Below are positions 755-32,153 of a stretch of DNA of 42,309 bases, piece by piece. A program made the translations under genes and the position numbers. Each line of letters opens with the position of its first letter. Position 1 is the stretch's first letter. Source of the stretch: Candidatus Azambacteria bacterium (GTDB taxonomy: Bacteria; Patescibacteriota; Minisyncoccia; GWC2-36-17; WO2-46-25); NCBI GenBank assembly GCA_016234725.1, contig JACRAK010000008.1, positions 1-42,309 of the forward strand, read 5' to 3'. The notes beneath the pieces are model-generated. The model did not search any database. It was given only the letters and a program-made list of their open reading frames with translations, and was not told the origin of the DNA.

Positions 755-783
755 TTGACAGGAACAATGTAATATGCTATACT
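755..783 (+). promoter_or_regulatory. Consensus sigma70-type promoter
   Basis: TTGACA (755-760), 17-nt spacer, TATACT (778-783), upstream of the two-gene unit. Confidence 0.85.
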
Positions 784-875
784 TAACACATAATTTGAGA
801 TGGTAGATTTCCTCTCAAATTAGCGAAAATAGCTCTTTGATAAGCGAGAGAAATACAAGGGAAAAGTCCTCTTTT

Positions 876-976
876 CCTCGGGAGTAGCGAAGTGGGTATC
901 TTAAATTGAGGTATCTAGCTCGCTACTCATGTCGAGGAGCCCTTGGTGCGGGGAACGCATCAATTTCACGCTCACG
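876..976 (+). ncRNA. Structured leader RNA motif, copy 1 (unassigned)
   Basis: P1 CCUCG(876-880)/CGAGG(933-937); P2 GAGUAGCGA(882-890)/UCGCUACUC(920-928); P3 hairpin ~893-917; P4 UUGGUGCG(943-950)/CGCAUCAA(956-963), loop GGGAA. 922-976 is identical (55/55) to 1917-1971. Confidence 0.8.
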
Positions 977-1028
977 AGGTGGCTAACGCCAAATTCAAAC
1001 CTCAAGAGCAAGAAAGTGGAGGAAAGCC

Positions 1029-1715
1029 ATGAAACACATCATGATGTCCAACGCGTGGGAGTTCGGAACGGATCCGTTCGCGGCCTACCGGGCCAACCTG
1101 GTCTACGGCCGAAACAAGCGCGACAGGGAGTTCCTGCCGGTCAAGGACGTGACCCCGATGACGCAGTACACGGTCACCGCCGACTACGGCAAGATCCTGT
1201 ACATCGGTACAGACAAGTCCGCGGCCGAGGCGGCGAAGGCGAAGTACGACGCGGAGCAGAAGGCGAAGGCCGAAAGCTCCTCGTACTGGACGCCGACCGC
1301 CGACCTGAAAGCCGGCCTGCCGACGCTTCCCGAGGGCAAGTTCCGCGTCATCAAGACGAAAGAGAAGGGCACCATCCTCGTGGTGCCCGGGAGCGACGAC
1401 ACGAATCGTTGCTTCCTGTTCGTCGGGTGCGCGGGCGGTTTCCGTGGCGGTGTCGGTGTCATCAGCGACGGCACCACCGGCACGATCCTCAAGGAGTGCT
1501 CCGCAGGCAACAACTGCGAGTCCTCCACCGAGGTCGTCGTGCTCCTCGAGCAGGGCCAGTCGGTCGCGTTCCACACGTCGGGCCGCCGCACCAACGAGGT
1601 GTACCAGTACACCTGGAACGGTGCGGAGGTGGAGAAGAAGCACTTCTCCAAGTCCGAGTGGGACAACCGGAACGCGGTTGCCGCACCGCCCATCGAGGAC
1701 GCCGAAGTCCTGTAG
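1029..1715 (+). CDS. Hypothetical protein (228 aa), GC-rich codon usage unlike neighbours
   Basis: Intact ORF with GGAGG-like SD (gtggaggaaagccATG), directly downstream of structured leader copy 1. Confidence 0.85.
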   Translation: MKHIMMSNAWEFGTDPFAAYRANLVYGRNKRDREFLPVKDVTPMTQYTVTADYGKILYIGTDKSAAEAAKAKYDAEQKAKAESSSYWTPTADLKAGLPTLPEGKFRVIKTKEKGTILVVPGSDDTNRCFLFVGCAGGFRGGVGVISDGTTGTILKECSAGNNCESSTEVVVLLEQGQSVAFHTSGRRTNEVYQYTWNGAEVEKKHFSKSEWDNRNAVAAPPIEDAEVL

Positions 1716-1743
1716 AGTTCTCTCGCAAGCACAACAGAGTTTC

Positions 1744-1768
1744 GGGAAGTTCTCTATAAAAACTTCCC
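1744..1768 (+). other. Stem-loop just upstream of the hammerhead
   Basis: GGGAAGTT(1744-1751)/AACTTCCC(1761-1768). Confidence 0.8.
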
Positions 1769-1769
1769 A

Positions 1770-1820
1770 CTGTTCCTCGGATGTGTATCCGAGCTGATGA
1801 GTCCGAAAGGACGAAAACAG
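1770..1820 (+). ncRNA. Hammerhead ribozyme (type III topology)
   Basis: CUGUU-C|CUCGGAU-GUGU-AUCCGAG-CUGAUGA-GUCC-GAAA-GGAC-GAAAACAG. Stem I 1776-1782/1787-1793; CUGAUGA 1794-1800; stem II 1801-1804/1809-1812; GAAA 1813-1816; stem III 1770-1774/1816-1820; predicted cleavage after C1775 (UUC triplet). Confidence 0.93.
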
Positions 1821-1862
1821 ATAGCACTTTGAGAAAACATAAACGAGAATATCTTCCTATCA

Positions 1863-1971
1863 CTTCGTGGGTAGCATAGTGGATGTCTTTGGAAAAATAA
1901 AAAAGATTTTCAGTATGCTACTCATGTCGAGGAGCCCTTGGTGCGGGGAACGCATCAATTTCACGCTCACG
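1863..1971 (+). ncRNA. Structured leader RNA motif, copy 2 (unassigned)
   Basis: P1 CUUCG(1863-1867)/CGAGG(1928-1932); P2 GGGUAGCAUA(1869-1878)/UAUGCUACUC(1914-1923); conserved block 1917-1971 identical to copy 1, including the P4 hairpin. Confidence 0.8.
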
Positions 1972-2006
1972 GCCACAGGCCACGAGCACGAAAACAGGAG
2001 GATGAC

Positions 2007-2375
2007 ATGAAAGTTTTCTGGACGTCTCGGCACGACCTCTCTCCGGCGCAGGTGTCGGCAATCCGCGCGCTTCACGGCGAGGACGCGGAAGTGGTAAAGG
2101 ACCCCGTGGTGTTCTCAAACACCGACGGGCTCGCGGATTACATCCGCAGCCACTCCGACAGTTTCGTCTACGCAGTCGCCGGTGCGCCGCACTACATCAC
2201 GGCGGCACTCGCGGGTCTCCGCTTCGGTGTGTTCGAGAACCACCCGCAGAAGCGACAGGACGGATCGTTCGGTCTCGCCGCTGTCTACCACGTGGACGGC
2301 TCGCTCAAGAAGGTTTGGGTCAATCCCGACCCGACGAGCGACAAAGGCGAGGCGCTGATCCCCGTCGCTCGCTAG
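2007..2375 (+). CDS. Hypothetical protein (122 aa)
   Basis: ATG at 2007 with AGGAGG SD at 1996-2001; MKVFWTSRHDLSPAQVSAIRALHGEDAEVV... Confidence 0.85.
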   Translation: MKVFWTSRHDLSPAQVSAIRALHGEDAEVVKDPVVFSNTDGLADYIRSHSDSFVYAVAGAPHYITAALAGLRFGVFENHPQKRQDGSFGLAAVYHVDGSLKKVWVNPDPTSDKGEALIPVAR

Positions 2376-2396: not shown

Positions 2397-2440
2397 GAGC
2401 CCCTTATGACAAAACATCGTCATTCGGGGCTCTTCTTTTT
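2397..2440 (+). terminator. Rho-independent terminator
   Basis: GAGCCCC...GGGGCTC followed by TTCTTTTT. Confidence 0.85.
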
Positions 2441-2734: not shown

Positions 2735-3232
2735 ATGAAATCTCAAAAACAAAAAATCACCCCCCTTCTATACGACACCTATTGTGCAATGGTGAAAAAC
2801 AGCATGGGAGCGCGGACATTCCGCAATGTATATGCGTGCGTGGATGGAAAGAAAAAGGACATCACAAAAAACAGCAGGCGCTCATGCGCTTTTTTTGTTT
2901 CCTCCATACTTCTCTCATCCACTTCCGTGCTCCATGCAGTAAAACTCATCTGTGAAATACATATTACAGTCGGAAGCACCGTGAAAGACCTTGCGCTTTC
3001 AGGATGGAAACACGTCCGCACTTTAAAAAGAGGAAGTATCCTTGTGTGGGAGAAAGACAGGGACGGATATCCGCATATCGGTTTTTATGTCGGCAACAAC
3101 AAAGCGATATCGTACAGCTCGAATAAAAAAACGCCTGTCATGCACCACTTCACCTACGGCGTAAAAAACGGCAAACCCGTACGAAAAATAGAAGCGATTT
3201 ACTGGCATAAAAAATTGAGCAGCAAAAAATGA
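2735..3232 (+). CDS. Small protein, possibly NlpC/P60-CHAP-like peptidase
   Basis: ORF ends overlapping the LD-transpeptidase start; GSILVWEKDRDGYPHIGFYVGNNKAISYSS resembles the His-containing segment of NlpC/P60-like folds. Fold assignment tentative. Confidence 0.6.
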   Translation: MKSQKQKITPLLYDTYCAMVKNSMGARTFRNVYACVDGKKKDITKNSRRSCAFFVSSILLSSTSVLHAVKLICEIHITVGSTVKDLALSGWKHVRTLKRGSILVWEKDRDGYPHIGFYVGNNKAISYSSNKKTPVMHHFTYGVKNGKPVRKIEAIYWHKKLSSKK

Positions 3233-3750
3233 GAAATAAGGCAAAAGACACAAACAACATGCTCGTATCTGCAGATGGCCGCCTATTATGGAAAGATAGA
3301 GAGTATCGATGCGCTCTCGGTAAAAACGGAGTTACCGCTCATAAAAAAGAAGGCGACGGCGCCACTCCTGTCGGCTGTTTTCCTGTCCGCAAGATCCTTT
3401 ATCGCTCGGATCGCATGGAAAAACCAACTACTGATATTCTTCTTGAACCGATTGCTCCGACCGACGGCTGGTGCGATGATTCAAATGATGATAATTACAA
3501 CCGCTTAGTCATGCTCCCCTATCACGCAAGCCACGAACGCTTGTGGCGGGAAGACAATCTCTACGACCTCATAGTGGTATTAGGATACAACGATGAGCCG
3601 CCCATCCCAGGCAAAGGAAGCGCCATTTTTATGCATGTGGCGCGCCCAAACTATACGCCGACCGCGGGATGCATCGCTCTTGCTCTTTCTGATCTCCTGG
3701 AAATCATTAAAACAATTAATCAGAGCACACGCGTTTGCATGTATGAATAA
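3229..3750 (+). CDS. L,D-transpeptidase catalytic domain (YkuD-like) protein
   Basis: HVARPNYTPTAGCIAL (H...GC) active-site pattern. Confidence 0.85.
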   Translation: MRNKAKDTNNMLVSADGRLLWKDREYRCALGKNGVTAHKKEGDGATPVGCFPVRKILYRSDRMEKPTTDILLEPIAPTDGWCDDSNDDNYNRLVMLPYHASHERLWREDNLYDLIVVLGYNDEPPIPGKGSAIFMHVARPNYTPTAGCIALALSDLLEIIKTINQSTRVCMYE

Positions 3751-3794: not shown

Positions 3795-3931
3795 TGGGCG
3801 GCTCGGACTTAAGCTAGTGTCCACGTGGGTGCCCGCAGGTGTGCATTCCGGACGAACCAGCAATGCATACCAATGTAAGGCTCCCGAGAACAATTATTTG
3901 ACCTTAAGTCGTTGCCTGCCCCTGTAGAGCT
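3795..3931 (-). ncRNA. ssrS: Probable 6S RNA
   Basis: Minus-strand promoter TTGCAT-17-TATAAT (TATAAT at 3943-3938) precedes a long imperfect hairpin: GGGGCAGGC..GACUUAAG / CUUAAGUC..GCCGCCC closing stem, large central bubble, GGG-GCC-GGU/ACC-GGC-CCC distal stem, apical UUCG-type hairpin. No ORF. Confidence 0.65.
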
Positions 3932-32054: not shown

Positions 32055-32153
32055 ACGCCTCTCCTTTTTTTATGCGTGAAGTATTTTAAATTCAAAAGAA
32101 CTGTTCTCACACCATAGAGAAAAGCCGCTCAAAAGTCAACGGATCTTGTATAC

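Follow-up and report, generated by a model that had tools for sequence, protein, structure and literature searches.

Organization of the locus

Near the start of the window, by which we mean the whole 42,309-nucleotide stretch of contig JACRAK010000008.1 analyzed here, two neighboring genes lie in a compact cassette enclosed by inverted repeats. A promoter is followed by a boxA-like motif, a three-hairpin leader, the first gene, a hairpin and a type III hammerhead ribozyme, after which a second half-unit brings another boxA-like motif, another leader, the second gene and a terminator. The features are:

513-667, no strand: left arm of the inverted repeat, 155 bp, enclosing the cassette
755-783, plus strand: sigma-70-like promoter, TTGACA-17-TATACT (11/12)
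832-842, plus strand: boxA-like motif GCTCTTTGATA, from the sequence (consensus GYTCTTTAANA from PMC5725501)
876-937, plus strand: hairpin A (P1, P2, P3) of leader copy 1, from fold, copy comparison and covariation
943-963, plus strand: hairpin P4 of leader copy 1 with GGGAA loop, from copy comparison
970-1009, plus strand: stem P5 of leader copy 1, GCUC...GAGC, from folding
1029-1715, plus strand: ORF1, orphan of 228 aa, GC3 0.91, ribosome-binding site at 1018-1023
1744-1768, plus strand: hairpin just 5' of the hammerhead, from sequence and fold, predicted to protect the 3' end of the ORF1 mRNA
1770-1820, plus strand: type III hammerhead ribozyme, predicted cut after 1775 (RF00008 at 1774-1816, descriptor match)
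1824-1834, plus strand: boxA-like motif GCACTTTGAGA, from sequence and motif scan
1863-1932, plus strand: hairpin A (P1, P2, P3) of leader copy 2, from fold, copy comparison and covariation
1938-1958, plus strand: hairpin P4 of leader copy 2, from copy comparison
1965-1987, plus strand: stem P5 of leader copy 2, from folding
2007-2375, plus strand: ORF2, 122 aa, ribosome-binding site at 1996-2002
2397-2440, plus strand: terminator-like hairpin GAGCCCC...GGGGCTC followed by a T run, from the sequence
2518-2671, no strand: right arm of the inverted repeat

The terminator scan misses the hairpin at 2397-2440, whose loop is too long for it. The two arms of the inverted repeat (155 bp) are near-perfect and are the only full copies in the genome; no transposase lies between them and no target-site duplication was seen by eye. 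Two other contigs carry partial copies (77-79%) close to their ends. A gene for a YkuD-type L,D-transpeptidase (3229-3750, Pfam E 1.5e-14) adjoins the cassette and, on the minus strand at 32102, another gene start of the window carries a promoter-like TTGACT...TATGGT, AGTTCTTTTGA and a ribosome-binding site, without a long hairpin. The layout given in a preliminary description of this locus was incomplete, in that P5, the hammerhead, the boxA-like motifs and the flanking inverted repeats had been overlooked.

Two copies of a structured leader

The leader copies (876-1009 and 1863-1987, one for each gene) share a 55-nt block, at 922-976 and 1917-1971, that is 100% identical, as had been reported. 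No third occurrence of this block exists in the 0.92-Mb genome, and BLAST against 194 related genomes returned matches in the window only. P1 pairs CCUCG (876-880) with CGAGG (933-937) in copy 1 and CUUCG (1863-1867) with CGAGG (1928-1932) in copy 2, while P2 is formed by GAGUAGCGA/UCGCUACUC and by GGGUAGCAUA/UAUGCUACUC, respectively. Four of the P1/P2 pairs present in copy 1 differ between the copies, and all four are still paired in copy 2, two through compensatory changes (G-C to A-U and A-U to U-A) and two as wobbles. The earlier observation that the upstream strands differ and yet pair is thus right about the pairing but not about change being restricted to the upstream strand: in both compensatory pairs the 3' strand is altered too, just beyond the 55-nt block. 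P3 forms a hairpin of 11 bp in copy 1, and its counterpart in copy 2 is weaker, in agreement with the preliminary description. P4 (UUGGUGCG-GGGAA-CGCAUCAA, 943-963 and 1938-1958) has the eight base pairs and the loop ascribed to it, one pair being G-U; being identical in both copies, it has no covariation support. Folding adds a further stem, P5 (GCUC...GAGC, 970-1009 and 1965-1987). Compared with dinucleotide shuffles, copy 1 folds with a z score of -6.1 and copy 2 with one of -5.7, and in either case none of 200 shuffles was as good.

Covariation between the two copies of the window is, on its own, weak evidence, which homologues strengthen. The 55-nt identity would also fit recent duplication or gene conversion, and the leader could be nothing but a functionless duplicate of a gene-start segment, its pairing left over from the ancestral copy; given the compensatory changes between the copies, and the conservation with covariation at the same position in four other genomes described below, we consider this scarcely credible.

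A leader family in related genomes

An Rfam covariance-model search of the leader gave no match at the gathering score, with only chance models appearing up to E 5. A model built from both window copies (R1) was run on 372 genomes of the same class, Paceibacteria within Patescibacteria, and yielded one candidate well above all others, L075 in genome G079. Located some 100 nt 5' of a 231-aa ORF and in sense orientation, it keeps P1, P2 and P3 with compensatory changes and likewise has no Rfam match; it is the one homologue in which retention of P1 was demonstrated. The resulting three-sequence model (R2), run on 183 genomes, added three matches (L099, L100 and L101), all of them in sense-strand 5' UTRs and preceded both by a sigma-70-like promoter and by a boxA-like motif, which reads AGTTCCTTACAA in two loci and AGTTCTTTGTAA in L101. 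Altogether, iterated models placed the main hairpin in four further same-class genomes, and every confident match is a sense-strand 5' UTR, a position that is free of the bias of the model search.

In a six-row alignment 91.5% of the cells are paired, versus 79.8% in shuffles. In P2 and P3, two-sided changes affect nine of 20 pairs, and the covariation score was reached by 0 of 500 shuffles. These counts are biased because the rows were found with models of the same structure. P5-type hairpins before the ribosome-binding site also recur, as GCUC..GAGC in the window, GCCCUCC..GGAGGGC in L099 and GCUCUC..GAGAGC in L100. Three R1 matches (L076-L078, 19.6-21.3 bits) were judged too weak to count, and L077 lies at the end of an apparent coding sequence. 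A match to model R3 (L094, 24.1 bits) was dropped since it falls inside an apparent ABC-transporter gene, which sets the noise level of R3 at about 24 bits; L018 (23.7 bits, R3), whose position fits a leader, scores at that level and is not counted in the family.

The absence of an Rfam match together with homologues showing covariation argues that this is a genuine, undescribed family of structured leaders. The proposal of a new structured RNA class is in this way supported, P2 and P3 being kept in four more genomes, and the Rfam search agrees with the initial failure to recognize a known riboswitch class. Among the stems for which support had been sought with covariance models, P2 (along with P3) obtained it, P1 did so in L075, and P4 showed no covariation. 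Exact and degenerate leader patterns had no match in viral contigs, nor did leader copy 1 in a blastn search against phages; the phage, plasmid and viral collections gave no match.

Genes behind the leader

ORF1 and ORF2 have GC3 values of 0.91 and 0.80 in a window of 50% GC, which could reflect either a foreign origin or the codon bias of highly expressed genes. Searches against Pfam, PHROG and NCBIfam assigned neither protein to a family, and fold comparison gave no convincing match, the structure model of ORF1 being poor (mean pLDDT 45); no phage relatives of the cassette proteins were found. Relatives of ORF2 with 63-77% identity exist in three other genomes, and those in L012, L013 and L014 are without the leader sequence of the window. 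In L012 (3910-4025) the ORF2 relative has a strong promoter and no hairpin A, and only its P5-like part, ACGCTCGTGGCCACGAGCCACG, resembles leader copy 2. A remote ORF2 match (L010, 28% identity) was discarded as it has no such leader.

The leader family also heads an apparent membrane protein of 200 aa (L101) and the 231-aa orphan of L075. In L103 and L104 it precedes related proteins that carry a variable region at the C-terminal end and are followed by a template repeat (3309-3429 and 3846-3966 in L103; 2609-2729 and 3086-3206 in L104). Leaving the repeat ends aside, all differences in the body of the L104 repeat fall at template adenines, which is the signature of a diversity-generating retroelement, and in L103 a reverse-transcriptase-like ORF follows. 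At both loci the repeats differ in an adenine-specific way, and the leader family heads the diversified protein gene.

These data bear on autogenous control, in which the ORF1 or ORF2 protein would bind both leader copies and repress its own operon. Both genes of one operon do carry the same leader, but the family heads unrelated proteins in other genomes and the ORF2 relatives of L012, L013 and L014 lack it, making such control very unlikely.

Since the genes behind the leader are unrelated, with no common pathway visible, a ligand-specific riboswitch is disfavored, and the riboswitch-like function suggested in the preliminary description is not supported: no ligand logic can be discerned. 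A rival idea is a translational switch in which the ribosome-binding site is held in a closed junction by pairing with the pyrimidine stretch 5' of hairpin A, to be opened by a ligand, an ion, temperature or a protein. The conserved, defined hairpin does contain an internal-loop region, and the predicted probability that the ribosome-binding site is unpaired is low (0.18 in copy 1, 0.00 in copy 2, 0.09 in L101 and 0.21 in L099); a site masked in this manner could be subject to such switching. Pairing between the 5' stretch and the ribosome-binding site exceeds that of shuffles in copy 2 (p 0.022) and L101 (p 0.010), but it is no better than in shuffles in copy 1 (p 0.18), L099 and L100. As the unrelated downstream genes offer no pathway, a metabolite sensor is disfavored, although a global signal is not, and no Rfam riboswitch matched. 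On balance we regard a translational switch as unlikely.

The hammerhead between the two units

The RF00008 (Hammerhead_3) match at 1774-1816 (cmscan, E 0.0016) scores 28.6 bits, below the Rfam gathering threshold of 48.5 bits, which is a curation cut-off and not a biochemical feature. The sequence has the CUGANGA and GAAA core, UH before the cut, and stems I, II and III of 7, 4 and 4 bp. At 1770-1820 it shares with Hammerhead_3 the core, the three stems and the rule for the cleavage site, and it differs from that family in its sub-gathering score and in a short stem I loop with the recurrent sequence AUGUGUAU. This loop sequence and variants of it recur in L015, L017-L019, L022, L040 and the window, all of them same-class hammerheads and sub-gathering; searching at the gathering threshold seems to undercount this group. 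Among 389 Patescibacteria genomes only two sequences exceed 48.5 bits, and 32 genomes have RF00008 matches at E <=0.001.

The 55 nt just 5' of the cut fold into hairpins more strongly than controls (mean z of -2.8 versus -0.7; 42 hammerheads at fetched loci). Two contigs, L070 (G560:C32) and L071 (G516:C16), have three to four hammerheads each, most behind a strong hairpin. The exact hammerhead string had no match in viral contigs. A literature search, with most subscription journals outside its reach, found nothing joining 'hammerhead ribozyme' with 'Patescibacteria' or 'Candidate Phyla Radiation'. Hammerhead cleavage leaves the upstream RNA with a 2',3'-cyclic phosphate and the downstream RNA with a 5'-OH, and both hairpin-protected cyclic-phosphate ends and structured 5'-OH ends resist decay enzymes.

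boxA-like motifs and a recurring layout

The motifs before the two leaders, GCTCTTTGATA and GCACTTTGAGA, can be set against the boxA consensus GYTCTTTAANA, and they are short. Variants are GCACTTTGA in copy 2 and GTTCCTTAC in L099 and L100; none was recognized in L075. Downstream of same-class hammerheads, a boxA-like 9-mer (at least 7/9) occurs within 25 nt in eight of 15 cases, against a mean of 1.2 and a maximum of 5 in 500 shuffles, so that about half of these hammerheads are without the motif; behind hammerheads from genomes of other classes it appears in two of 28, which is chance level. The genome encodes NusB (PF01029, E 4.6e-31), and in its rRNA leader the promoter is closely followed by TTGCCCTTTGACAA.

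Segments behind boxA-like motifs fold with a mean z of -4.1, compared with -1.2 for ordinary 5' UTRs, in a set that was partly picked by eye and in which four of 22 fold no better than shuffles. Their hairpins are mostly of unrelated sequence, differing at nearly every locus, and common sequence homology was rejected because R1 misses them. Near the ORF2 relatives, L014 has two leaders 96% alike over 120 nt and L013 has a long hairpin behind each of five boxA-like motifs. The layout that recurs in related genomes is 3' hairpin, cutter, boxA, 5' hairpin and ribosome-binding site, with the leader of the window as one sequence family that occupies the position of the 5' hairpin.

In L013 the hammerhead slot is held by a hairpin with an internal-loop motif, roughly GAGTCC // GG(A/C)TTCA, mostly directly before boxA (in the roughly 45-50 nt that precede 1000, 1841, 2405, 3183 and 6543, and also at about 3864-3915). 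This element, which has no Rfam match, is a candidate processing site or candidate ribozyme.

boxA binds NusB/S10 in rRNA and elsewhere, and in suhB it represses (PMC5725501, PMC10250234). The window resembles boxA antitermination leaders (rRNA operons, lambdoid nut sites and the suhB 5' UTR) in having a boxA-like motif of the GYTCTTT type shortly after the promoter and then structured RNA; in contrast, its motifs stand on orphan protein genes, are repeated within the operon after a ribozyme, and their binding of Nus factors is a prediction. The boxA-then-hairpin order matches that of lambdoid nut sites (PMC10250234), and the cassette lies within 155-bp inverted repeats, both of which would suit a nut-like system in which a dedicated protein that a mobile element may encode binds boxA and hairpin A (as boxB) and makes the polymerase terminator-resistant. 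However, no N-like gene was identified, the phage, plasmid and viral collections are without a match, and hairpins that differ at nearly every locus are ill-suited to one sequence-specific protein, so we hold this to be distinctly improbable.

A natural expression and processing module?

The explanation that we favor, with a probability of about 0.55, is a portable 5'-UTR module of Patescibacteria for expression and processing, present here as two hammerhead-separated units in one transcript. It builds on what was computed: the hammerhead consensus fold, the fold and covariation of the leader, the enrichment of boxA-like motifs and upstream hairpins at related hammerheads, and the position of the leader before unrelated genes. 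Leader relatives in front of quite different genes point to a portable module for making and keeping mRNAs and not to a sensor of one molecule. The predicted role of the boxA-like motif is to recruit NusB/S10 to the nascent transcript and keep the polymerase processive; the stacked hairpins would give the mRNA a structured 5' end ahead of the ribosome-binding site. In the cell, we infer, the type III hammerhead between the two units cuts after 1775; the ORF1 mRNA would then end behind its hairpin with a 2',3'-cyclic phosphate and the ORF2 mRNA would carry a 5'-OH followed by the ribozyme and the leader hairpins, the outcome being two messages that may each be stabilized and protected on their own. 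The predicted pairing of the ribosome-binding site in both window copies speaks against the module, as it would be odd for a pure expression enhancer.

The nearest functional analogue of the proposed module may be RiboJ, an engineered hammerhead plus hairpin that, when placed before the ribosome-binding site, sets the 5' end of the mRNA by self-cleavage and raises mRNA and protein (PMC6206723, after Lou et al. 2012). The order hammerhead, hairpin and ribosome-binding site is found in the window at 1770-2002 and also in L014/L026 and L019. Unlike RiboJ, the window unit is natural, its ribozyme also ends the upstream cistron behind a hairpin of its own, a boxA-like motif stands between ribozyme and leader, and the leader has three hairpins. 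For hammerheads that flank prophage genes, Perreault et al. 2011 (PMC3088659) suggested that they divide long transcripts into mRNAs of single genes, and those loci share with the window the presence of hammerheads around single genes. The portions of that article available to us make no mention of boxA, paired end-hairpins or a repeated leader, all of which the window unit has; its setting also differs, being Patescibacteria and proteins for which no phage relative was found.

A more tentative reading takes the recurring elements as punctuation between Patescibacteria cistrons, where 3'-end hairpin, hammerhead or other cutter, boxA and a hairpin leader that is in part a defined RNA family together would yield separately protected monocistronic mRNAs. 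Its novelty would lie in ribozyme-based formation of bacterial mRNA ends, so far undescribed, with a cutter that in L013 is possibly not a hammerhead.

If these proposals hold, Patescibacteria would have evolved ribozyme-insulated mRNA units, of which RiboJ is an independent counterpart from synthetic biology, and the leader would represent a structured RNA family absent from Rfam. mRNA end formation would then be a reason for the recurrence of hammerheads between bacterial genes. The module would also supply natural 5'-UTR parts and offer a testable route by which orphan and retroelement-diversified proteins may be expressed in bacteria that can hardly be cultured.
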